Positions 3,288 through 29,861 of a stretch of 36,775 nt of DNA are shown here, one piece after another (the stretch's first letter is position 1; every line of letters starts with the position of its first letter). Source of the DNA: a virus. A program made the position numbers and the translations under genes. The stretch lies in IMG/VR virus record IMGVR_UViG_3300030382_000517, positions 1-36,775 of that record. The stretch is one strand, 5' to 3'. Below the pieces are notes generated by a model. It had not been told where the DNA came from and ran no database searches. It was given only the letters and a program-made list of their open reading frames with translations.

Positions 3288-4253
3288 TTATGCAGGTGTA
3301 ATACCGTACATGTATCCTTGACGGGCGCGGTTACTTGTTGTTAACTCGCCGTAGCAGAGTAACTGTGAGAATACCGCATCTTGATTTGTAGGACGGACAA
3401 ACGGAGTTGGCTTAAACCAAACGTCTGAGTGTGCTACAAGTTGTAGATACTTGGTATTCAACATGTACATTTTTCCTTCGCCCGCGAGAACGCCGTCAAA
3501 TGTTACTGGACATCCCTTGAAAAGAAGGTTCTGGAAACCACCATCAGCCATGTCGGTGTCGGTGTACCTGATCTGTCCTTCAAGAAGACCCTCGTATGTT
3601 TCATACTGGGTTTGTCCTGTGATGATGATTGTAGGCTGATCATTACCCACTGAACAGTTATTGTAAGTGGTAGCCATGTTTGCTTGAGTAAGAGCGCCAC
3701 CTACGTTAGTAACTTGTGATCTCCACCACGAGTTATCTCCGTCAGTAGCATCAATACCCGCAAAAGCGGCTGATCCATCATCATTACCTAGACCAACACA
3801 AGCGGCTAGACCATTCCAGTCTTTGCCACCGTTGCCGGTGCTGTTACCATAAAACATGGTGTTCATGTTTTCAATAATTGTTTCCTGCGTTTGAAAGATT
3901 TTTCCTTCAAGAAGGTCAATTATTTGTGCTTCGCCATTATTTTTGGCTTCTTCAATACCGTTGATTGTTACTGTCGCAGCATACTGTTTCCAAGAGTACT
4001 CAGCAGCGCTTATGCCTGTTTGAGCAGTTGTGGAAATAGCATCTGTACCAGCGTATGAACCAGCGGTAGAGTTTGTGCCATAAATAAGGGGTACTACTAT
4101 GTTCGCACCACCTGATACACGCCTAATTGTCTGACCATTTGTTAAAGCGTAAAACAGTGGTCTTGCGCTGAAAATGTTGTCAGTCAGTTTAGGGATATAG
4201 TTTTTCAGAGTGGTGGAAAGTATTTCATCAAAGTTAGCATTACCTGCTGCCAT
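3288..4253 (-). CDS. Major capsid protein (HK97-like), 321 aa
   Basis: The N-terminus (NANFDEILSTTLKNYIP, then FSARPLFYALTNG) and the following GGANIVVPLIYGTNS, WKQYAATVTINGIEEAKN and MFYGNSTGNGGKDWNGL segments match the usual layout of phage HK97-fold capsid proteins: N-arm, long spine helix (about residues 100-140) and A-domain. Length is typical for a capsid protein without a large N-terminal delta domain, fitting the separate scaffold gene upstream. A GAGG-type ribosome site precedes the ATG. Its order after portal and scaffold strengthens the call. Likely the most abundant virion protein. Confidence 0.88.
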   Translation of the reverse strand: MAAGNANFDEILSTTLKNYIPKLTDNIFSARPLFYALTNGQTIRRVSGGANIVVPLIYGTNSTAGSYAGTDAISTTAQTGISAAEYSWKQYAATVTINGIEEAKNNGEAQIIDLLEGKIFQTQETIIENMNTMFYGNSTGNGGKDWNGLAACVGLGNDDGSAAFAGIDATDGDNSWWRSQVTNVGGALTQANMATTYNNCSVGNDQPTIIITGQTQYETYEGLLEGQIRYTDTDMADGGFQNLLFKGCPVTFDGVLAGEGKMYMLNTKYLQLVAHSDVWFKPTPFVRPTNQDAVFSQLLCYGELTTSNRARQGYMYGITPA

Positions 4254-4277
4254 TTGTTTTTTACCTCATTCTGTTAT

Positions 4278-5012
4278 CTATGAAGCAAGTTCCCGTTTCG
4301 CATCCTCGAATGCTTGCCGGATAGAATTAGGTTTAAGAACCGTACTGTCCTTAACAGCCCCTGTTTGTTTTGAACCTGTCGGTTCTACAACAGTAGCGTC
4401 TCGTTTAGCGTCTGTCCGTTCCTGTTCTTTTTCAAGTTTACTGGCCTTTTCTGCAACGTCGCCGTAGCGCATGTGTGTTAGCGCGGCTTCTAAATTGCCT
4501 ATTTTATGAGTCAGTGCATGTTGATAAAGTTCTTGAGCGTCAAAATCGCCGTACTGGTCTTTAAGCCCTTCTACTTGCTTTTCTGTTTGTTGTCGTCTTT
4601 GTAACCGATTCTGCTGCGCTATCTGTGTTTCCAAATTCGCTATGCGCTGCTCGGTAGGATCAGGTTCTGTGTCACCCCAAGTGTCATAACTATCGTCACC
4701 ACCTGTATTGGATGATCCAACCTGAACCCCGAACGCATCAGCCAACGCTGTTAACGTACCATTAGGGTCCGCTTCCAACGAGGAAACTATTGCTTCCGCT
4801 TGCTGTAACCGTTTACGTTCGGAAGCCAATTCCTGCGTCTTACGTGTGTAATCCGACTGTCTTTGGTATCCGTCCCGAAGTTCTTCAAGGCTGACCTCTT
4901 GATTTTCGCCATCCACCTTAACGGCGTATGTGTTACCAGAAGGTTCCTCTGAAACTTCAACTGAAGACTCTGGAGTGTCCACCTTAGTGGATTCCGTTAC
5001 ATCCTCTTCCAT
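4278..5012 (-). CDS. Capsid scaffolding protein, 244 aa
   Basis: Highly charged, Glu/Gln/Lys-rich protein with a long predicted coiled-coil (residues about 40-85 and 125-195) and a very acidic N-terminus (MEEDVTESTKVDTPESS). These are the usual traits of phage scaffolds, which organise capsid subunits and are then removed. The basic, helical C-terminus (NSIRQAFEDAKRELAS) would be the expected capsid-binding end. GGAGAAAATAGAAT precedes the ATG. It lies between portal and major capsid genes, the canonical position. No protease motif is visible here, so how the scaffold leaves the head is unknown. Confidence 0.85.
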   Translation of the reverse strand: MEEDVTESTKVDTPESSVEVSEEPSGNTYAVKVDGENQEVSLEELRDGYQRQSDYTRKTQELASERKRLQQAEAIVSSLEADPNGTLTALADAFGVQVGSSNTGGDDSYDTWGDTEPDPTEQRIANLETQIAQQNRLQRRQQTEKQVEGLKDQYGDFDAQELYQHALTHKIGNLEAALTHMRYGDVAEKASKLEKEQERTDAKRDATVVEPTGSKQTGAVKDSTVLKPNSIRQAFEDAKRELAS

Positions 5013-5074: not shown

Positions 5075-6952
5075 TTATAAGGATGGAAATTCCATCCCCA
5101 TTTGACCCTGTAATTGGGCCAACAACTCTGGAGGCACGCCGCCGGTTGGAGCAAACGCTCCCGTGTCGGGGCCGGGTGGTACAGGCACTTGACCAAATGG
5201 TGTAGGTGCTGCACCTGCCTCTTCAGAAGCAACTTCCATGTCTTGCGGAGTTTGCTGCTGAATAATAAACTTTTCAGGATCTTTAACATCGAATCCCATT
5301 GTTAAAACATGTTTCGCTAAAGCAACAGGATCTATGACAGTGCCTACGAGAGGTGCCATAGCATTTAATAATGAGACAGCCTGCTGTTTACGAATAGTGT
5401 CATTGATAGGTTGAGTTGAACCACCTTCAACAGTGAAATCAAATTCCCCTATAATGTCATCTCTGCTGTAAGTAAAGAACATGTCTTGACCGCCTTTACC
5501 GGCGATACGAGCCATCTGTTCACCTGTCATAAACTGTTGCATCAACTGGATAACCCGTCGTGCTAACTGTCCGATACTTATTTCAATTATTGCAAGTTTG
5601 TCTGCTGCGCGAGCATTACCTGCATCAGCGATAATGGATGCTTCTGTCGCTGTACGCCTAATTTCAGGCATCGAGCCACGGGCATATTCTGAAACACCAG
5701 ACACAGTGTTGATGTCTTGTTCAATGATGGCTGAAGTGTTATAAATTTCTGGTGATAAAGGAGTTTGTGGCATTGGTACCACAACTTCTTGCAAAGGTTT
5801 ATTTTCATCAACCACTGGAACTAAACGTCCATCTTGATCTGATTCTAACGCTTCGCGTCCTTCAGGACCGAATGAACGTTCGTGGTACAAATATTTTCTT
5901 GCATAACGTTTACGTGCATTTATAAGTTGCGTACGTGTTTTATCCAATTCGAGTTGTAAAGACTCTATTGATTCTAAATCACCCATTGGGTAAAAGAAAT
6001 CAGGAATGTCATAATTTCGTAACATTACAAAAGGTTGACCGTAAGCGTAAGGCATAGGCATAGGATCAACTAGAAACTCTTCGCTCGCTTGTGAGAACAC
6101 TGACATTGTGTTTTCTTCAATGTCATAATATTCGTAGATTGCTACCCTATCTTCGTCAGCCAAATATTGTTCTTGTTCTTGTATCTGACGGTTTTGAAAC
6201 ATCGGGTACAAAATACCGTCGGCTTGTAAACGTTTACGAACTGATGCTTTGTATCGTTTATCTTTTTTAGCCTCTTCCAAAGGACGCACTATGCGTTGAC
6301 AAATCCAATTAGCATCTTCTACACAAGTTGCTTCCGGGTCGATGTAAATGTCAAAAGGTGAAACTCTTTCAATGAAAGGCTGGTCTTCCACAACCATCAT
6401 TGTTGTTTCAGGAATGTTAACAATTATTTCTTCATCTGTTGGAAGATCACCTGCCATATCAATATTTTCCACAGCGAAAGTATCCGCTTCTAAAATAGCG
6501 TCATCTAACATTTCTTCACGTTCAGAGTCGCTGAGAGTTCGTTCTTGTTCAACAAACTTCCAACCGACTTTCATCCATGCGTGACCCGTTATAAGAAAGT
6601 CTTTAACTGCACGTCGGAAAGGTTTACGAAAATCGTGATGTCTCCACAAATAGTTAACTACCGCTTCAACAAACGCCGCTCTGTCTTGATCTTCTTCTTG
6701 GGTAGCGGAAACAACTATTTTAGGGTGATTAACCGAAACGGAAGGTGCTATAACATTAACTGTACTAAAAGCAAGATTAACTACGATCAGATCTTCATTA
6801 GTTGCTGTTGTTTGAGGCCATTGCCTTCCACGGTACAAGTCTGTCATACGTTGCCATAGCGAGTCGTAACCCATTTCTTCCCGCCAACGTGCTGATGATT
6901 CTAACCTTTTTTTAGCAGTGGCATATTGCTCTGCTCTGGTTTTACGTGCCAT
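5075..6952 (-). CDS. Portal protein, 625 aa
   Basis: A large, mostly helical protein located between the terminase genes and the scaffold, where portals are normally found. The N-terminal region (WREEMGYDSLWQRMTDLYRG, then NLAFSTVNVIAPSVSVNHPKI) and the middle segment SIESLQLELDKTRTQLINARKRYARKYL look like portal clip and stem regions. VSGVSEYARGSMPEIRRTATEAS is a portal-like loop and wing motif, where tunnel-loop residues often precede a long helix. The C-terminus is Pro/Gly/Gln-rich and probably flexible. The ATG overlaps the previous stop in a TAATG, implying coupled translation. It forms the DNA-entry channel at one capsid vertex. Confidence 0.85.
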   Translation of the reverse strand: MARKTRAEQYATAKKRLESSARWREEMGYDSLWQRMTDLYRGRQWPQTTATNEDLIVVNLAFSTVNVIAPSVSVNHPKIVVSATQEEDQDRAAFVEAVVNYLWRHHDFRKPFRRAVKDFLITGHAWMKVGWKFVEQERTLSDSEREEMLDDAILEADTFAVENIDMAGDLPTDEEIIVNIPETTMMVVEDQPFIERVSPFDIYIDPEATCVEDANWICQRIVRPLEEAKKDKRYKASVRKRLQADGILYPMFQNRQIQEQEQYLADEDRVAIYEYYDIEENTMSVFSQASEEFLVDPMPMPYAYGQPFVMLRNYDIPDFFYPMGDLESIESLQLELDKTRTQLINARKRYARKYLYHERSFGPEGREALESDQDGRLVPVVDENKPLQEVVVPMPQTPLSPEIYNTSAIIEQDINTVSGVSEYARGSMPEIRRTATEASIIADAGNARAADKLAIIEISIGQLARRVIQLMQQFMTGEQMARIAGKGGQDMFFTYSRDDIIGEFDFTVEGGSTQPINDTIRKQQAVSLLNAMAPLVGTVIDPVALAKHVLTMGFDVKDPEKFIIQQQTPQDMEVASEEAGAAPTPFGQVPVPPGPDTGAFAPTGGVPPELLAQLQGQMGMEFPSL

Positions 6953-7560: not shown

Positions 7561-8226
7561 TTACAGTGTCCCACGTATACTATGTTTACCTATCAACATT
7601 TCATCAGTTTCCTCTGGTTTAACCATTCTAGCAAACCAATCCACAGTCCAATAATCGTCAGTTTTCGTTGAATACTCAGGCATAAACGCATACTGGCGCA
7701 TTTCATTAGCCAACGCTAAAGCCATAACACGGTCATCATGCGGGCTACCTGACATAGTACCCCTGCTTGTACGCACATAAGTACGTAACTCAGCCAAAGT
7801 AAACCTATCGTGAATCGTTAACTCTTCTGAACGTAAAGCCATACCAAGATCATCAATCAACAAAGGTTTAGTCGTTCTAGTAGTTTTCCAACCAAACTCT
7901 TGAGACACTTTAGAAGTTGACTGATTCAAACTTCTTTTACGAAAAAGATTAGGGTGACCTAAATGACGCAACTGAACCAACGTAGTTAAACCATGATTGT
8001 TTGATTCCACGCAAGTCAAACCGTCGTTATACCACAACGCCAAATTGTACACTTCATTAGCCAAAGTATCAGGTGGTATGTGACCATGCCAAATAGCAAC
8101 CTGCTCACCACTGCGTACATCTAACACTTGAGCACAAGAATAGTCGCCGTGGATTAAACCTTCCGCTGTGTCAACACCTAAACAATAAATGTGGTTTGCT
8201 TCCGGCTCACGCCAAACTGTAAGCAT
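7561..8226 (-). CDS. terL: Terminase large subunit, nuclease part (second half of a split TerL), 221 aa
   Basis: This ORF carries the RNase-H-like nuclease half of a phage terminase. The three acidic positions expected for two-metal catalysis are visible: Asp19 in LGVDTAEGL, Glu74 in TCVESNNHG, and Asp164/Asp165 in SPHDDRVMALALA. The ATPase half is in the upstream ORF, in a different frame, overlapping by 20 bases. The second ORF opens at an ATG preceded at 10 bases by GGAG, so reinitiation is possible. Alternatively a +1 shift in the overlap would make one chain of about 510 aa, a normal TerL length. It would cut concatemeric phage DNA during packaging. A sequencing or assembly indel is the main rival explanation for the split. 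Confidence 0.85.
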   Translation of the reverse strand: MLTVWREPEANHIYCLGVDTAEGLIHGDYSCAQVLDVRSGEQVAIWHGHIPPDTLANEVYNLALWYNDGLTCVESNNHGLTTLVQLRHLGHPNLFRKRSLNQSTSKVSQEFGWKTTRTTKPLLIDDLGMALRSEELTIHDRFTLAELRTYVRTSRGTMSGSPHDDRVMALALANEMRQYAFMPEYSTKTDDYWTVDWFARMVKPEETDEMLIGKHSIRGTL

Positions 8227-9112
8227 CTTTTCTAAACTCCACTACTTTCGGATGAGGGTTCCACAAATACCCTCCTTGACCTTCTTCTATTTGACCTGCC
8301 ATACTTTCTAACACATCCAAATCAAACACAGGGTTACCAGACTTAATAAACGCCTCTTCAGGACTGGTCGGATACTCTTGAGCCAACTGCCACGCCAACA
8401 TAGATTCTTTCTTAGACTGATACCAAGTCTCATCCCTGTCCTCAGTAGCAGACCAAGGGAAAAACATTGGTTCAAACTTGTTGGTACCAGTTTCAGAACC
8501 AACCCACAGTTCGTGAAAAAAGTTACCCGAACCGTTAGCAGTAGACAAACCTATAATCCTACCGCCAACATCAGCGACAGGTTCTATAGAAGCCCACGCT
8601 TCTTCAGGGTTTGGAAGGAACGCCCATTCGTCAACCACAACCAGCGTAGCCGACTCACCTCTAGCAGGATCGGATGCTGAAGGCATTGAAGTAATTTGAG
8701 AACCATTATCAAACCCCATTTTCTGCTGATGTTCAACAGTTGATTTCGGACCACGCGACACCATCCATTCAGGTAAATGCTGAAAACCATACTTTGATTT
8801 TCTTAATAATAAAACAGACTCACGTTCAGTACGAGAAAGATCAATAATGTTCTGATCAGAGAAAAAGAACGCTAACCAAAACTGGTGAGCAGCAACAAGA
8901 GTAGTCCAACCTATCTGACGTGCTTTTAAGGTGAGACTGTAACGGTTTGTTTCCCAGTGTTGTAATGCGGTAGATTGCGCACGTCGTAAATCAAATAGGA
9001 TACGCCCGTGAGCAGGATGAGCAATATGCCAATACTTATGTAGGAAATAAGACTCATCTCTTTCACAACGTCTCCACTCAGCCTCTTGTTGCAGTTCTGT
9101 TAAACGAGACAC
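8207..9112 (-). CDS. terL: Terminase large subunit, ATPase part (first half of a split TerL), 301 aa
   Basis: Contains the packaging-motor ATPase: a terminase-type Walker A at residues 63-71 (KARQIGWTT), Walker B with catalytic Glu at 157-162 (LVVVDE), and a coupling motif STA at 190-192. It ends after YSLA at a TGA, just where the linker to the nuclease domain would start, while the nuclease continues in another frame. The start is a GTG whose first base is the last base of the preceding zinc-ribbon gene's TAG (TAGTG), so it is translationally coupled. The motor would pump DNA through the portal. Both halves keep intact motifs, so decay looks unlikely. Confidence 0.88.
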   Translation of the reverse strand: MSRLTELQQEAEWRRCERDESYFLHKYWHIAHPAHGRILFDLRRAQSTALQHWETNRYSLTLKARQIGWTTLVAAHQFWLAFFFSDQNIIDLSRTERESVLLLRKSKYGFQHLPEWMVSRGPKSTVEHQQKMGFDNGSQITSMPSASDPARGESATLVVVDEWAFLPNPEEAWASIEPVADVGGRIIGLSTANGSGNFFHELWVGSETGTNKFEPMFFPWSATEDRDETWYQSKKESMLAWQLAQEYPTSPEEAFIKSGNPVFDLDVLESMAGQIEEGQGGYLWNPHPKVVEFRKDAYSLA

Positions 9113-18140: not shown

Positions 18141-19130
18141 GTGGCTGATGTTGTACCACCAGATGAAGTTGCCCGCCGTCTTTTCGTTGCCACGGACGGA
18201 GAGGCGGTGGACACATCTGAAGAAGAACCAGAAGAAGAATTTGAACCTAAACGCTGGTCATTAACCAAATCAGTAGTAGACAACCTCGTAGGATTCATCC
18301 AAAACCCGTCCGAAAGATGGTACCTAGGGTTCAACGAAATAGACTTAGCGACCCGCGGCATAGGCAAAGGCGAAGTGTTGATGGTCGTAGGTAGATCACA
18401 CACAGGTAAATCACAAATGTTGTTAAACAGTATTGTTTCAAACCTGATAAACCACCCCGAAGCGCACGTAGTTATCTTCTCAATGGACGAACCACGCGAA
18501 CTCATAGCGATGAAACTGTACTGTCTGCTCAGAGGCAAATCATCCACAGAAGTGGAAGAAGCAATCAAAGCCCTAGACCCACACACATTAAACGACTTAG
18601 CGGAAGCATCCGAAAGGGAACTGTCAAGAGTAGCGATCATAGACGAATCATTCCCACTAGAACAAATGGCAGAAGTCATGGACGAAATAAGAGACTGGTG
18701 GGGAGTGAACCCATCCTTCTGCATGATCGACTACCTAGAGTTACTACCCGGAGGCGACTCCGATGCGACAGGAGTGACAACCAAAGCACAAGCAGTTAAA
18801 CGTTGGGCTAAAACGCAACGAGTACCAGTCGGCCTAGTACACCAAGCAGGCAGAGGCTCCGGTGATAAAGGCAAAGCCGCAGGACTGTACGCAGGCAGGT
18901 ACGGAGGTGAACAAGAAGCGATCTTCGTGATCGAAGTTTACAGACAAAGAGACAGATATGACCTGTCACCGTGGGAAAAAGAATTTCACGAAAATTCAAT
19001 CAACCTGAACCTGTGTAAAAACAAAAGAACAGCACGACTCATAGATCAAACCTACTATTTAGACCCTGAGTTCGGAGGCGTTCACCCTTACTGGGAGGAG
19101 TTGATGCCCAATGCCAATCAACAAATATGA
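18141..19130 (+). CDS. DnaB-like replicative helicase (SF4/RecA-type ATPase), 329 aa
   Basis: Starts at a GTG preceded by AGAGGT. After an acidic N-terminal tail, the C-terminal ATPase domain has Walker A at residues 84-91 (GRSHTGKS), Walker B around Asp197 (FCMIDYLELLPGG) and the expected downstream glutamine in PVGLVHQAGRG. There is a glycine-rich loop (AGLYAGRYGGEQEA) that resembles the DNA-contact loop of hexameric helicases. The usual N-terminal DnaB domain is absent; the first 40 residues are mostly acidic. It overlaps the primase gene by 20 bases, fitting a helicase-primase pair. It probably unwinds DNA at the fork. Confidence 0.85.
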   Translation: MADVVPPDEVARRLFVATDGEAVDTSEEEPEEEFEPKRWSLTKSVVDNLVGFIQNPSERWYLGFNEIDLATRGIGKGEVLMVVGRSHTGKSQMLLNSIVSNLINHPEAHVVIFSMDEPRELIAMKLYCLLRGKSSTEVEEAIKALDPHTLNDLAEASERELSRVAIIDESFPLEQMAEVMDEIRDWWGVNPSFCMIDYLELLPGGDSDATGVTTKAQAVKRWAKTQRVPVGLVHQAGRGSGDKGKAAGLYAGRYGGEQEAIFVIEVYRQRDRYDLSPWEKEFHENSINLNLCKNKRTARLIDQTYYLDPEFGGVHPYWEELMPNANQQI

Positions 19131-20139
19131 ACCACACATCATACAAGGATTCGCTGACCTGTTCAGAGGCGGCAAAGTAGCAATAGACACAGGCGACTTC
19201 AGACCATGGACAAACCACGACGGAACATTCGTCGCCGCACAAGGCGAAGAATACGAAACTAAAATAGCAGACCACCTGCAAGCAGACCCAGCCATCGGAG
19301 TGTACCCACTGTTCGCACAAGAAGACGGACTGAAAGTCTACTGGGGGTGCGTTGACTTTGACGAAGGAATACAAGAATCATACATACACGCAAAAAACGT
19401 ATACGAAGTCCTGAAACAACTAGACGTACAATCTTGGATAGAGCGATCACGTTCCAAGGGATACCACCTTTGGGTGTTTTTCACCACCCCGATGTACGCA
19501 AAAGAAGTAAGAGAAGGACTGATAGGAGCCTGCGACATCGTTGAAGCACCAACAAAAGAAGTAAACCCGAAACAAGTAGAACTCTCAGAACGAGGGTGGG
19601 GAAACGGAGTGAGACTACCCTACGCGGACAACCGTCAACAAGGAGGCTACAACGAGATGGACAGACCCGAATACTCCTTTTCTATGGTACCAGTAAAAAC
19701 CTTCGTTGAAGAAGCCATAAAAACACGTATAACACCCGACTACTGGGAGCCTGTCAGAGCCCTGTACAAGCCTCCTAAGCCGTTCAAACCATCAACAGAA
19801 GGATACACCCCCACAGGACCCCTCAAAGGCCTTGCAGCGACCATAAGGAAGAACGGTCCCAGACCCACAGACACACTACCCCAAGGAGACAGATCAGCGA
19901 CCCTATTCTCACTCGCTTGCATAATGGTAAGACAAGGGTATCCACAACAAAACATTTTTAATGAATTAAAGTCAGCGGACAAGGAATGGGGAGGAAAATA
20001 CGACAGCCGTCAAGACGGCGACACACAAATTTGGAGAATAGTAAGTGCCTCAGAAAAAGTCGCGTGGGATAACGAAGAAACCTATCAGCGTAATTATAGA
20101 GAGAAGACCAAAAGTCAAGGCACGCCCAAGACACACTAA
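19111..20139 (+). CDS. Archaeo-eukaryotic-type primase (AEP), 342 aa
   Basis: The N-terminal half has the AEP signatures: VYWGCVDFDEG with Asp82 and Asp84, SRSKGYHLWVFF with Ser114 and His119, and GNGVRLPY with Arg168. These form the polymerase active site that makes primers. The C-terminal part (residues about 250-325) is helical and resembles a primase C-terminal domain (RSATLFSLACIMVRQGYPQQN). It is preceded by GGGAGGAG and overlaps the helicase gene. AEP enzymes may also have polymerase activity, which matters because no separate DNA polymerase is seen. It is not a bacterial DnaG-type primase. Confidence 0.82.
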   Translation: MPINKYEPHIIQGFADLFRGGKVAIDTGDFRPWTNHDGTFVAAQGEEYETKIADHLQADPAIGVYPLFAQEDGLKVYWGCVDFDEGIQESYIHAKNVYEVLKQLDVQSWIERSRSKGYHLWVFFTTPMYAKEVREGLIGACDIVEAPTKEVNPKQVELSERGWGNGVRLPYADNRQQGGYNEMDRPEYSFSMVPVKTFVEEAIKTRITPDYWEPVRALYKPPKPFKPSTEGYTPTGPLKGLAATIRKNGPRPTDTLPQGDRSATLFSLACIMVRQGYPQQNIFNELKSADKEWGGKYDSRQDGDTQIWRIVSASEKVAWDNEETYQRNYREKTKSQGTPKTH

Positions 20140-23129: not shown

Positions 23130-26100
23130 CTACTCGATTTCTCTTTCTAAATTACGTATACTGCTACGCTCTTCAGAAGCCTCAATGCGTTGACGCACAG
23201 ACTCACCTCTTTGCAAACGCTCAGTGTTAATTTTCACACTCAAACCACCTAACGTAGACAGCATCGTTTGCAGCCAAGCATCCTGAGTTTTTCTATCTTC
23301 AGGAATGATCCTACGCCAACGCGCCATGTAAGGTAAAGCATTCTCTAAAGTGTTTAAAATCTTACCATTAATACGCCACTCACCTGTACTGTTCTTTTCA
23401 ACCCACGTACCACCACTCATAAATTTCATAATCTCAGGCAACCCACGGATATGACGGAAAGCAGCAGGCATATTAACCCAATCATCTTTCAAAGGAATAC
23501 CGGCATAAACTTTCTTCTCAGCGAAAAACTCTAAAGGAGCCTTCAAAATAGGAGAAGCACCAGAAGTAATCTGCTCCAACGCACGCTTACCCCCCTCAGC
23601 AGTAGGATCAAGCCTGATCAAATCCTGCAAAGGTAAATCAGGAGTAGCGTACGCAACCGAATCACCTATCTTAAACGGCAACTTGAAACCGAAAGGTTCC
23701 AAAATGTAATCAGCGACAAGTTCATCTTCAGGACCGCCCATCTCCATGTTTCTTTTAAGACTAACCATCCTGTTGAACTTGCCCGGATTCTCAGCCATCA
23801 TAGAAATCTGCAACGGAAAGTTTTTACGAGTCCAAGTGTAAAACGGAATAGCACGCTTCATAACGTTCATTTCCATACTGGACAAAGCACCGTAATCGAA
23901 ATGCAATTTGTAAACCTGCTCAATCGCTTCATCAAAAGTTTTACCTGTACGCATCCCATGTAACGCTGTCCCTAAACGCATAGCACTTTCAGCAGTACTG
24001 TTAGCGTTGCGTACAGCAGAGTACATAAAGAAACCTGCGTCTAAAGGATTGGCTCGTACACGTTTTGCTTGAGCGGGAGCGTTCTTACCTCCCACAACGA
24101 AATCCAACTTGCCTGTTTTACCCATATTAATATCAACAGACGACACTGCTTGACCTCCGCCGTGAACTCCGCGTTCAACTAAATCTAAAGCGTTACGCAA
24201 CTCGACATCCTTAGGGTTGGCTCTTAACAAAGTTTTTAAACCTTCAGTTAAATCACCCTTACCTGCTGCTGTTGCACGTCGCACAAGGTTGCCTGCTTTA
24301 ATAGTTTCATTCAACGGAATACCATCTAACCACATGTTAAATGCGCCTCCCATCAAGTTACGAATCACGAAACCCGGAGTGGCTACCATCTGTGCTTTCA
24401 TCCAGTTGTGTATCTTGTCGTAGCCTCTCAAAAATTTGTTAACCTCACGCGGGTCGTTCATCTTCTGCGCCGCTAACATTCCCGCTGTGAAATCATCCCA
24501 GAAAATTGGATCTCCCGTAATGTAAAACTGGCGAGGTCCACCCAACCCCCACATTTGTTGACCAGTCATCTGCCACGCTTCCTGAAGGTTCTTAGCGGTG
24601 ATGTTACTGATGTCTACCTCTCCACCGAAACTGTTCAAATTGAAAGGTTTGCTTCCTTCGACACTACCGTCACCTAACATGGTTCCTATAGCGTTAATGT
24701 AACCGTCTTTTTCGCGTTGCATCTGAATTAATCTTTGCTCTTCAATCACAGATTTAGCCTGCATTTCAGTAATGGCATGTTGACGTGCTAACAATTCTTT
24801 ATTGAAATCCATTCGTGATCCTCTTTGAGTAAAACCGTCTGCATCCACTCTGACAATCGGTCTTTCTGAAGGATAAACAGAACGAGAAGAACCAGTTAAC
24901 GTTTCCAACTGTGCTTCCAAGTTGCGTAACCTTTGAATTGTTTGTTCACCAGCCACAAACATGTTTTCTTCTATCGCTTGAGCGGCAACAAAATTTGCTT
25001 GACGTGCAGGCGCTCCACGCATAGTGTCATACTGGTTTATTAACAAACCTAGTTCTAAAGTTTCTTGCGTATCCCACCCTCTGTTAAGAGAAACTTGTCG
25101 TTGATCCAACGCTTGTTGAAGTTCAGTCCAAAACCTAGGATCATCCACACTAGGTAATCTTACGCTAGCAGCCGCTTCTGACACCTGTAAAGGAGCGTTA
25201 GGATCAATTTGACTTTGTGTACCACTGGGTCTGAAACGCCCACCTTCAAGATTAACAGTGTCATCCAAAAGAGAGGGTTGCAGAGGATCTCGTATCATCG
25301 TTAAAGTTTCTTCTAATGAGGTCATGTCATCACGAACAGATGCTCTTAAAGAAGTTCTAACCCCTGAAACCCTCCCAGTTTTGGGAGCAACCACCCCAGC
25401 ACGACTAGGCTCAATTCGTCCGACATCATCCATTCGGTTACGCACACCTGTGTCAAGATTTTCCATAACATCAAATACTCTACGCGGTCTGCTATATTCG
25501 GGTTGCAGAATGTAAGCCAAACGTTGCGCCCCTTCTGTACCCCATACTTCTTCCGCTTCAGCCATTAAAATAGCGCCACGTTTACGCAACGTAGTTAAAA
25601 TATCGTCAACACTGTCATCTATCTTCGACAAATAATGAACCTGTAAAGTGTCCTCAAGGTTACCCAACTCACTCATCGTTTTATGAAAACGTTGAATGAC
25701 TCTATTAGTATCCGGGTTTTTGATCCGTTGAGGAGCCAAAGTTAAAGTATCTTCATTAAACGGTCTTCTGATAAAAGTACCAACATCAGGTATAGCCTCA
25801 CCTGTTGCTCTGTTTATTTTATATAAACGTCCTTGAGCGCCACGTATCTCACCTTTGCCAGTAGGTAAACGCACCATGTCAAAATCTAGTCCTTCATCAA
25901 ACATGTAATTATATGTGACCGCATCGCCTGTACCTAATTCCCCTGTTTCAGCAATGAAACCCATCTTGCCGTACTCTCTTCTACGGTTAAGATCAGTCTG
26001 AAACTTATCTAATTGTGTTTTTAATTCATCTAAAGCGTCGTTTAAAAAACCTTCCGGTTCTCTTGCAAAATCTGCTCTATCAAACCAATAACCCAAATCA

Positions 26101-29100
26101 TTTAATAAATCTATTTGATCGTCAGTAATTTTATTAACCGCATTAGGATCTTTAGCAAGGTTTAACAAGTTTTTAGTTCGCTGATTTATACGCATCGTGG
26201 CTTTACTAGGAACTACCTGATAATTACCAGCACCCTTGACCTTCACAATTTTATTATTTAATTTTACTGTTTTAGCCAAACGTGCTGTACTCTCTTCAGG
26301 TAAATCAAAAGCCGCTCTAAAATTTTGCAACTCATCGAAATCTATTTGCCCTGAAGGGCTAGCAGTAACCATCACACCCGCTCTGTCAGCATCGAATAAA
26401 ACAGTGTTATCTAACCAGCCGCCAGCCAACTGAGCAAACTCTCCTTGCTCCGCAGGATTCAATGTTTGTGCCAGTATATTATTACTCTGATATTCCCCTG
26501 CCATTTCCCAATCTACACGCCACCTGAGAGGATCATCTGTTTTTACTGACGTGCGGAAGATAGAGGGATTCTCCGACCCATTAAAAATATTAATGTTATC
26601 AAAATCTAATCCATATTTTTGCATTATTTTTCTTCGAAATTCAACAAAATTATCGACACTTTTAATAATGTTTACTTTGTTAGGATGATTAGATGCTTCC
26701 ATCACCTTTCTGAAAGTTTTACCACCCAACTCTGCTACAGGACTATCTAAACCAGATTTCCATACTTTTGTAGGAATGGTGTAACCTTCACCTCCTAAAG
26801 TGCCTGTAATGCCACCCCACAGTTCATTCATTTCACGTTGAACGATCGTAATACCATTTTTAGAAGTCAACCCCGCAGCCAACTCTGTTGATTCGCTGAT
26901 CTGTTTCAAAGCAACAATCGTTCTGTCTTTCATCATCGTATCTTCAGACAGATTGCGTACATAAGGAATTAACGTTTCGTCTATAAAGGTGTGAGTGTTA
27001 GTCATGTCATCCGCTATGCGAGTTAACCCTTCGGCAACATCAGAAGCACTCTGCCCCTGCATGTTCCCTATCGTTTCGATAACGTTTCTCATTGTTGCAG
27101 TGCCTTCTTCTAACAGTTGAAGACGCATAGTGGCTGCTTCTAAATCAGCAAGAATAGGAGTTAATTCTCTGACAGCATCAACAGCGAAAGCAGTTGGATC
27201 TTCCAACCTGTACTCTGCACCAAAAGCAGTTCCCGGCACACCCTCTTCAGTGATGCCACGAACACCAAGTATTATTTCCAACTCTCTTGCTATGTCCGCA
27301 ATTTCTGCTTCTATCTGATGGCTTTCCAACATGCCTTGACCGGATTCGCTTATAAGGTCATTAATTTCTTTACGTATACGCGCAGCGCTTCTGGGAGGTA
27401 ACTTTTCTAAAAAATCATCAAGAGCATCTGTGTTAAGAGCGCCATTCATTTGTTCTATAGTTTCTATAACTTCACGTTGCGCTTTTATATTGTCAGCCAA
27501 TTTATTAATCTCAGCACCTGTTGCTTCAATAGTTTCATCAAATAATCTCAACGCATTACCATGTTGCGCTAATGTGTCAGCATTAAATATTAAACCTTGA
27601 TCAGCAGCGTATGTTTCAATGGATGCTAAACGCACATCACCTGCCATACTACGAACATACGAATCTTCTCTCGGTTCAAACCCTCTCACAAATAACGATT
27701 CATCATCCGCTAAATATCCTGCTTCACGGTACAAAGCATCTACTTGTTCAGGGATGGTGCGACCCAAAGGATCAGCCACAGTTCCCCCACTCTGCTCCAA
27801 CGCTAAACGCGCCTGCTGCTCTTCAGGATTCAAAGGACGACGAGTAGTTCTATAACCCGACCTGCCTAAATCATCAGTTTCGTAAGTTATTTGGCGTACA
27901 TCAGGCACATCAGAACCCTGCCTGTGAGGGCGACCTATGATAGTAGAAATCTCTTCACCAGTGTCAGCGTTAAGAATAGTTAAAGTCTCACCTTCAGTAA
28001 ATTCACCCGCCTCATTAATCCGATTAGGTTTAATTCTTCTTTCCCTCATGTGACTACTCACACGCCTGTTAGTAGCCTCTCTACGTCCAGCAGCAGGAGC
28101 CAAACCTTCAGCAGGATCACCTAAAAGTTTTATAGCAGCCTTCTCACCGCCCGTAGCGGTTTCAATAATCACACGACCTTCAGGTGTCAACATGTGAGGA
28201 GAGTAACCACCAAACCCCATCAACACCTCGTTCGCTTCACGCATAAAACTACTTTGTATACCCAATTCTGCTTCCTCAGCGGAACCACCATACAAATCTG
28301 AACGACCTAAAAACTCTATATCAGGCACCCTTACCAACTCGTCAAACAAATCAATAACTTCAGCAATCTGATTCAAATTCAAATCAGGAAAATCTTCAGC
28401 CAAACGAGCGTTCATCTCAGGTGAAAGAGGAACCCCAGCCTTAATGTCATCAGCCAACTCGGAAGGCAACGAAGTCAACTTACCTAAAGTAGTGTCATCT
28501 ATACGACCTATTTTTCGTTGAACCTCATTAACGAAAATTTTACGATTCCTCATCGCTGTACTAACCCAATGACCCTGAGTGGCAGAACCACGATCAAAAG
28601 CACCCTTAAAAAAAGTGCTTAAAATAATGTCATCAACTTCTTTAGATCGAGCGAGACGATTAGTTCTCTGCTTCAAATCTCTTCTACGTTGACGCGCCAA
28701 AATACCTTCAGGGTCTTGACCACCAGCACGACGCAACCTATCTAAATATCTTTGCTGAGTATCAACCATAAGTTCACCAAATCGTTGACCAGCCTTAGAA
28801 CCAGCAATCTTCTCAAACCTTAAACCCGGACTAGACATAATAGAAGCAGACACACCAGCACCAACAGGAAAAGTCTTTTTAATTTTAGGAACAAACTCAA
28901 CAGGCATTTTCGCAGCCTTCGCTAAAATGTTTTGAGCCTCCGAAGAAATATTTCTAGCAGTAGCAGATTCACGGAAACCTTTACGACGCGCCTGTTTCAA
29001 CAACGCAACAGTATCCTCCCCTTTAGGAAGAAGACTCTCCAACTTGTTACGAGTCATAGCAGGAATCTGATTCGCTCTTCTACGAGCAACCGCAGCCGAA

Positions 29101-29861
29101 TCTCTAGTCAACCGACCCAACAAAGGACCAGTACCCGGTGTACGCACCCTAAGACCAGTCTGAATACCAGCCTCCTCTATAAGATCCTTAGCCTCTTTAG
29201 TGCCAAGTTTAGTTAAAGCATTACGCGCACTGGAAACACTCCCACCTTTTTTACCAGCCGCACTAATAGCAGTAGTTAACGCTTTTTCTTTAGCCTGCAA
29301 CCTAGTAATATCATTCTTAGAAGCCTTAGAACCTTTTGTGGCTAAAGATTTTATATCTTTCTGAATAAGGGTTCTTGCCTGAGCCAACTCTTTAGTTAAC
29401 CCTTTCGCACCCCTAGCACGGGCGTACACGCCCAAACCACCAACATAAGACAAAGGATCTAAAGCAACATCGCCAACAAAACCAGCGATACGATTACCCC
29501 ACTTACCAAGATTGATATTCTCTTCACGCAAATAATCACCAAAACCATAATGATTTTTAGTTTGCGAAGCCAAATCCCGAAAACTGAAACCTTCCCCTTG
29601 GAAAAGATCAGTCATTTCTTTAACACCAGATGTTATAAAAGAACGAGGTAAATCAATAACACTCAACGCTTTACCAAACAACCCGCCTATGCCGCCTCCG
29701 CCAGAAGGAGCCTTCTTGTTTTTGAACCCTCCTGCGACAGCACCCCAATCAATCGCACCAGCAGGTCGAGAAACAGGAACAGGAATTTTAGGAGCAGTTT
29801 TAGGTTGAACGCCTTGTTGCGCTATGCGTCTTAAAATGTCGTCAAGAGAAGGAGTAGCCAT
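23130..29861 (-). CDS. Giant internal virion / ejection-type protein, 2243 aa
   Basis: At 6.7 kb this is nearly a fifth of the window. The N-terminal 150 residues are Gly-rich and moderately hydrophobic (GGGGIGGLFGKALSVIDLPR, then WGNRIAGFVGDVALDPLSYV), which might insert into a membrane. Long helical and charged regions follow, with recurrent Arg/Glu-rich segments, and the C-terminus is a helix rich in Glu and Arg (RIEASEERSSIRNLE). No clear catalytic motif was seen: I looked for transglycosylase, peptidase and polymerase patterns. In short-tailed phages such huge late proteins usually sit inside the head and are ejected with DNA to form a channel. A multi-domain virion enzyme remains possible. 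It follows the 974-aa protein with no gap. Confidence 0.7.
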   Translation of the reverse strand: MATPSLDDILRRIAQQGVQPKTAPKIPVPVSRPAGAIDWGAVAGGFKNKKAPSGGGGIGGLFGKALSVIDLPRSFITSGVKEMTDLFQGEGFSFRDLASQTKNHYGFGDYLREENINLGKWGNRIAGFVGDVALDPLSYVGGLGVYARARGAKGLTKELAQARTLIQKDIKSLATKGSKASKNDITRLQAKEKALTTAISAAGKKGGSVSSARNALTKLGTKEAKDLIEEAGIQTGLRVRTPGTGPLLGRLTRDSAAVARRRANQIPAMTRNKLESLLPKGEDTVALLKQARRKGFRESATARNISSEAQNILAKAAKMPVEFVPKIKKTFPVGAGVSASIMSSPGLRFEKIAGSKAGQRFGELMVDTQQRYLDRLRRAGGQDPEGILARQRRRDLKQRTNRLARSKEVDDIILSTFFKGAFDRGSATQGHWVSTAMRNRKIFVNEVQRKIGRIDDTTLGKLTSLPSELADDIKAGVPLSPEMNARLAEDFPDLNLNQIAEVIDLFDELVRVPDIEFLGRSDLYGGSAEEAELGIQSSFMREANEVLMGFGGYSPHMLTPEGRVIIETATGGEKAAIKLLGDPAEGLAPAAGRREATNRRVSSHMRERRIKPNRINEAGEFTEGETLTILNADTGEEISTIIGRPHRQGSDVPDVRQITYETDDLGRSGYRTTRRPLNPEEQQARLALEQSGGTVADPLGRTIPEQVDALYREAGYLADDESLFVRGFEPREDSYVRSMAGDVRLASIETYAADQGLIFNADTLAQHGNALRLFDETIEATGAEINKLADNIKAQREVIETIEQMNGALNTDALDDFLEKLPPRSAARIRKEINDLISESGQGMLESHQIEAEIADIARELEIILGVRGITEEGVPGTAFGAEYRLEDPTAFAVDAVRELTPILADLEAATMRLQLLEEGTATMRNVIETIGNMQGQSASDVAEGLTRIADDMTNTHTFIDETLIPYVRNLSEDTMMKDRTIVALKQISESTELAAGLTSKNGITIVQREMNELWGGITGTLGGEGYTIPTKVWKSGLDSPVAELGGKTFRKVMEASNHPNKVNIIKSVDNFVEFRRKIMQKYGLDFDNINIFNGSENPSIFRTSVKTDDPLRWRVDWEMAGEYQSNNILAQTLNPAEQGEFAQLAGGWLDNTVLFDADRAGVMVTASPSGQIDFDELQNFRAAFDLPEESTARLAKTVKLNNKIVKVKGAGNYQVVPSKATMRINQRTKNLLNLAKDPNAVNKITDDQIDLLNDLGYWFDRADFAREPEGFLNDALDELKTQLDKFQTDLNRRREYGKMGFIAETGELGTGDAVTYNYMFDEGLDFDMVRLPTGKGEIRGAQGRLYKINRATGEAIPDVGTFIRRPFNEDTLTLAPQRIKNPDTNRVIQRFHKTMSELGNLEDTLQVHYLSKIDDSVDDILTTLRKRGAILMAEAEEVWGTEGAQRLAYILQPEYSRPRRVFDVMENLDTGVRNRMDDVGRIEPSRAGVVAPKTGRVSGVRTSLRASVRDDMTSLEETLTMIRDPLQPSLLDDTVNLEGGRFRPSGTQSQIDPNAPLQVSEAAASVRLPSVDDPRFWTELQQALDQRQVSLNRGWDTQETLELGLLINQYDTMRGAPARQANFVAAQAIEENMFVAGEQTIQRLRNLEAQLETLTGSSRSVYPSERPIVRVDADGFTQRGSRMDFNKELLARQHAITEMQAKSVIEEQRLIQMQREKDGYINAIGTMLGDGSVEGSKPFNLNSFGGEVDISNITAKNLQEAWQMTGQQMWGLGGPRQFYITGDPIFWDDFTAGMLAAQKMNDPREVNKFLRGYDKIHNWMKAQMVATPGFVIRNLMGGAFNMWLDGIPLNETIKAGNLVRRATAAGKGDLTEGLKTLLRANPKDVELRNALDLVERGVHGGGQAVSSVDINMGKTGKLDFVVGGKNAPAQAKRVRANPLDAGFFMYSAVRNANSTAESAMRLGTALHGMRTGKTFDEAIEQVYKLHFDYGALSSMEMNVMKRAIPFYTWTRKNFPLQISMMAENPGKFNRMVSLKRNMEMGGPEDELVADYILEPFGFKLPFKIGDSVAYATPDLPLQDLIRLDPTAEGGKRALEQITSGASPILKAPLEFFAEKKVYAGIPLKDDWVNMPAAFRHIRGLPEIMKFMSGGTWVEKNSTGEWRINGKILNTLENALPYMARWRRIIPEDRKTQDAWLQTMLSTLGGLSVKINTERLQRGESVRQRIEASEERSSIRNLEREIE

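Follow-up and report, generated by a model that had tools for sequence, protein, structure and literature searches.

A probable two-subunit large terminase encoded by consecutive ATPase and nuclease genes across a large viral clade

The large terminase (TerL) is normally a single chain. Phage T4 gp17 is of this kind: in structures 3cpe and 3ezk one chain is matched by both halves of the terminase described below, and the halves align to its two domains, unlike the arrangement reported here, in which each half has a gene of its own. In a jumbo-phage review, an ATPase-plus-nuclease TerL is presented as universal in the phages surveyed (PMC7824862). A TerL made from two genes has been described in the Arthrobacter cluster AY phages (PMC11920828, PMC12820723); BillyTP (GenBank PP978841) and BlueShadow likewise carry ATPase and nuclease on two consecutive overlapping genes. 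Within the open-licence PMC literature, the cluster AY papers were the only ones found to describe a two-gene TerL, and a description of the split-TerL lineage presented here was not found.

The window analysed here is the whole 36,775-base stretch of an IMG/VR virus record, and both of its TerL frames lie on the minus strand. An earlier note on this DNA, in which the strand went unstated, had claimed that TerL is split into two overlapping reading frames, and the sequence bears this out. The first part, the putative packaging ATPase subunit (ORF1, 301 aa, GTG start), is read from 9112 to 8207 and was assigned by its match to Pfam Terminase_6N. The second, the putative nuclease subunit (ORF2, 221 aa, ATG start), is read from 8226 to 7561 and was assigned from an AlphaFold model together with invariant acidic residues. 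The two genes share 20 nt (8207-8226, minus strand) that are coding in both frames, the nuclease frame being +1. Both the TGA that ends the ATPase gene (8207-8209) and the ATG that opens the nuclease gene (8224-8226) lie where the earlier note had placed them. So do a Shine-Dalgarno-like GGAG (8237-8240), separated from the ATG by a 10-nt spacer, and the TAG that closes the nuclease frame 15 nt upstream of the ATG (8242-8244). The AAAA run that the note had pointed to is present as well, at 8231-8228, one base away from the 8229-8232 that it gave. Codons for VEFR (8231-8242) precede the junction and codons for LTVW (8212-8223) follow the nuclease ATG, all on the minus strand; in the model of the nuclease half a strand is placed at residues 2-4, in the LTVW region. 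When a second copy of the 21-nt overlap motif, as a candidate DNA signal, was sought across the window with up to 3 mismatches, the junction itself was the sole match.

The halves were compared with Pfam families, with terminase profiles and with known structures. ORF1 matches Terminase_6N above the cut-off (E = 2.6e-7), and ORF2 matches Terminase_6C below the gathering cut-off (E = 0.0051). An ATPase profile built from 53 relatives matched T4 gp17 at E = 1.3e-31, and a nuclease profile of relatives matched RB49 at E = 6.4e-10 and T4 gp17 at E = 2.5e-8. The AlphaFold model of the nuclease half (mean pLDDT 78.3) matches T4 gp17 3cpe at E = 6.0e-12, and also the nuclease domains of G20c, RB49 and P74-26 (structures including 5m1f and 3c6a); the model of the ATPase half was poor (mean pLDDT 49.8) and was left out of the fold search. 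Among 53 aligned sequences, residues K63, A64, R65, Q66, G68, D161, E162, S190, T191, A192, N193 and G194 of the ATPase half show no variation, and neither do D19, E74, D164 and D165 of the nuclease half. Thus the claim that each half keeps its key motifs stands, given the Terminase_6N match, the gp17 profile matches and the invariant residues.

Measured against a TerL of the gp17/Terminase_6 type, the pair includes an N-terminal packaging ATPase with motifs that we take to be Walker A, Walker B and the coupling motif, and a predicted RNase H-fold nuclease with an acidic triad (D19, E74, D164/D165). The two domains are encoded by two ORFs in different frames and do not share one polypeptide reading frame. 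Both halves are complete domains, and the pair probably works like TerL in a two-gene form. Walker A usually carries GK[ST]. The corresponding stretch of ORF1, KARQIGWTT (8900-8926, minus strand; residues 63-71), lacks a lysine at this place, and in the profile alignment the lysine that follows RQLG in gp17 is missing from the window ATPase. Seven positions of this stretch (K63, A64, R65, Q66, G68, W69 and T71) are invariant in 53 of 53 sequences.

A comparison with relatives, which the earlier note had proposed as a check, shows that the split is common property. Relatives were taken as the best 80 matches of each viral-contig scan, plus one species-genome scan; the resulting 377 loci included 339 with both halves (E ≤ 1e-20), which reduced to 181 distinct 270-nt junction strings. 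These sequences are related, and the junction counts that follow are of non-independent events. Among the best 80 matches per scan, 179 of the 181 distinct junctions are split and two (L131 and L133) are uncut; the nuclease gene starts with ATG or GTG in all 179 split junctions. Half of the strings (91 of 181, the window included) have the geometry of the window: the nuclease is read in the +1 frame, and the ATPase gene stops 17 nt past the A of the ATG. In this class the start is ATG in 91 of 91, and the stop is TGA in 77, TAG in 10 and TAA in 4. A further 70 junctions are ATGA or GTGA overlaps (54 with ATG, 16 with GTG) that put the nuclease in the -1 frame, and four are TAATG junctions. Nine take other split forms, in which the stop lies 4 nt beyond an ATG (four), 5 nt beyond a GTG (three), or 29 or 26 nt beyond a GTG (one each). 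The remaining five hold a complete extra gene between the halves. Overall, 78 of the 181 junctions have the nuclease in the opposite (-1) frame. Because 91 of 181 junctions share one geometry and a split of one kind or another is seen in 179 of 181, the geometry is more than chance.

We placed these forms on a tree of 88 rows, obtained from the 153 of 181 junctions with long enough halves by removing near-copies; four of the five loci with an extra gene were among the 153 and two among the 88. Junction labels change at least 15 times on this tree. The split is conserved and its form is variable.

The genes found between the halves are of two kinds. At one locus (L063) a 90-aa ferredoxin gene (4177-4449; Fer4_15, E = 8.6e-17) lies between them, with a stop-start overlap on each side, and a near relative (L177) has a bare ATGA junction without the ferredoxin gene. 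At four loci from four different metagenome accessions, a PAPS-reductase-like gene of 277-282 aa is found instead (L274, 1218-2066; L352, 3873-4721; L354, 2858-3691; L367, 3873-4709); its likeness to PF01507 lies below the cut-off (E = 4e-4 to 2e-3). The stop of the PAPS-reductase-like gene overlaps the ATG or GTG of the nuclease gene, so that at all five insert loci the nuclease start overlaps the stop of the inserted gene. Since a whole gene intervenes at these five loci, a frameshift cannot yield a joined enzyme there, and the nuclease needs a start of its own. On a separate contig, from a TMED189 MAG (L221), a ferredoxin gene and an opposite-strand 2OG-Fe oxygenase gene are found just upstream of the split terminase (4158-4391 and 4388-4996).

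Uncut members of the family show where the cut was made. The uncut TerL of Podoviridae sp. ct52p938 (MW202803.1) belongs to the same terminase family and is 52% identical to the window in the ATPase part and 44% in the nuclease part; unlike the window pair, it is one continuous 560-aa protein. A profile scan seeded with this terminase supplied the best 80 more distant loci, to which L131-L134 were added. Among these 84 loci, which hold some redundancy (L451 and L452 are contigs of L132 and L133), 81 of 81 that could be assessed are uncut, the other three being broken by contig ends. When 37 uncut and 27 split rows were placed on a tree, all the split ones formed one clade (SH-aLRT 100) nested among the uncut ones, a pattern that takes a single change. 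The uncut proteins have a median length of 526 aa, to which the sum of the split pair, 301 + 221 aa, comes close.

In the linker alignment, uncut relatives typically read EFR-(E)DGG-xLxVW, whereas split ones read EFR and a stop, followed by M-x-LxVW or MLTVW; the VEFR and LTVW codons of the window align with the EFR that precedes and the LxVW that follows the DGG turn. The cut thus falls on a tight DGG turn that joins two predicted strands, and by this alignment the fission would have removed a turn of about three residues. An intein or intron between the halves was considered and rejected, as the linker alignment contains no extra sequence.

By the plain measure of ATPase and nuclease on consecutive separate genes, the window has a split-gene TerL, as cluster AY does. 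A blastp comparison of cluster AY and window proteins gave E = 0.008 over a 22-residue stretch and E = 0.19, no clear relation, and the cluster AY nuclease belongs to a different Pfam family (TerL_nuclease, PF20441). Most relatives of the cluster AY proteins carry a single terminase annotation under the match, among the matches listed. Because there is no clear blastp relation, the nuclease families differ, and the split clade sits among uncut TerL from the same family as itself, the split described here most likely has an origin independent of that in cluster AY.

The signals at the junction are those of a coupled gene pair: a start that overlaps or touches the upstream stop, and a Shine-Dalgarno-like motif. 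GGAG with a spacer of 10 occurs in 54 of the 91 window-type junctions. For the Val codon that supplies the first G of GGAG, GTG is used in 71 of 71 cases, versus 455 of 1115 in the gene body. Glu at the junction is GAG in 57 of 82 cases in the window class (1168 of 2168 in the body) and in 61 of 70 in the ATGA/GTGA class (755 of 1695 in the body). Codon choice favours GGAG, and the start signals are kept.

The overlap of the window-type class is also unusually constant. Two sites, +8 and +11 counted from the A of the ATG, are third positions in nuclease codons 3 and 4; they are the same in 91 of 91 and 89 of 91 junctions, respectively, and third positions just outside the overlap show near-maximal variety. 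The natural reason is that these third positions are also first positions of ATPase tail codons. Nuclease codon 7 is no longer Glu in 14 of 91 junctions (AGA in 9, AAC in 4, AGC in 1), yet the ATPase stop is still kept. Together, the frozen overlap and the kept stop favour an ATPase chain terminated by the stop of its own gene, although the freeze could instead reflect a nucleotide signal of some kind. The frozen ATPase tail, DA[YH]SLA, is absent from the ATGA lineages.

Three options had been raised in the earlier note for the split, namely a two-subunit enzyme made by coupled translation, a programmed +1 shift (for example at TTT-AGA) and a one-base assembly error, and the survey of relatives separates them. 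A contig from IMG/VR with an AAAA run near the junction is a plausible place for a single-base error that breaks an intact TerL gene. However, the same geometry recurs in 91 distinct junctions, some of which lack the AAAA run (the bases at positions -4 to -2 differ), and 88 further junctions, among the best 80 matches per scan, are split in other ways; the equivalent splits of the relatives refute an error, to which we give practically no weight. Some observations would fit a programmed +1 frameshift within the overlap, giving a fused TerL with or without a separate ATPase: the halves overlap in the +1 frame, the nucleotide-level conservation of the overlap might mark a shift signal, and joining the frames close to the ATG would produce one continuous protein resembling those of the uncut relatives. 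The window's own junction class could still be joined in this way. Yet the codons at which slippage would occur are not conserved, with 11 forms before GAT and nine at the prior position among the 91 junctions, and in the same set the upstream stop of the nuclease frame ranges from 15 to 120 nt before the ATG. RNA folding shows no excess over shuffled sequence in three stretches (mean z of +0.39, -0.28 and -0.45 for every second of the 91 junctions, n = 46; -0.07, 0.98 and 0.61 for the window itself). The -1 frame of 78 of the 181 junctions, the whole gene that intervenes in five, and the start codon present in every split junction among the best 80 matches per scan also speak against it. The split is most likely not a frameshift, and we consider a shift improbable.

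A different account would make the nuclease half a decaying remnant, with packaging served by another nuclease. Nothing was found in its favour beyond the principle that a separate gene could be lost, and the four acidic residues D19, E74, D164 and D165 are unchanged in all 53 aligned sequences. The nuclease gene is also present in 179 of 179 split junctions, a count to be read with the fact that loci were chosen partly by that gene. We regard decay as very improbable, less likely still than a frameshift. What the relatives support is the first of the three options, since the split and a nuclease start codon persist through varied frames.

We therefore favour, with a probability of roughly 0.92, the reading that this large terminase is truly an enzyme of two subunits encoded by two genes, that a single gene fission gave rise to it and that it is made by coupled translation. 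The ATPase subunit would be translated through to its own stop, and the nuclease subunit would start afresh at the ATG within the last ATPase codons, aided by the upstream GGAG and by ribosomes that end nearby (stop-start coupling). That the products are separate chains is what the sequence suggests. The cut would have replaced the short DGG turn that connects two predicted beta strands where the ATPase and nuclease domains adjoin, and because only this turn was replaced, both domains would be complete with almost no residues lost. The two proteins presumably meet in the packaging motor, perhaps by pairing of the same two strands between chains. The best reading of the sequence data is that the fission is old. 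Coupled translation is an ordinary mechanism; what is unusual is that a core packaging enzyme has remained in two pieces throughout a large clade, and that other genes have come to lie between them.

A bolder and more tentative extension, which we hold to be somewhat less than evenly probable, is that the nuclease is a free, exchangeable subunit of the tailed-phage motor. It would meet the ATPase ring by pairing the strands that flank the removed turn, the ratio of nuclease to ATPase might differ from 1:1, and metabolic genes would have a docking site in the vacated junction. If so, the lineage would offer a natural way to test whether a covalent link is needed for DNA translocation. More generally, a lineage that has kept both parts separate through many junction changes makes it possible to ask whether packaging and cutting require a covalent link between ATPase and nuclease. 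The split also matters in practice: such phages may be scored by gene callers and in TerL-based trees as having a truncated or a double terminase, and 'frameshift' flags at the TerL junction should not count as errors.

Several further observations were made. The species-genome scan returned two MAG contigs, Acidimicrobiaceae TMED189 and Euryarchaeota SAT11, which disagree on the host. For a minus-strand ORF of 2243 aa in the window (23130-29861), Pfam gave no match at E 0.01. Genes of the window are often tightly packed: seven adjacent minus-strand ORF pairs share exactly one base in a stop-start arrangement (at 483, 6952, 32786, 34122, 34673, 35173 and 35775). Other genes of the window include an SU10-type portal (5075-6952), a major head protein (3288-4253) and, at 18141-20139, a DnaB-like helicase that adjoins a TOTE-type archaeo-eukaryotic primase.
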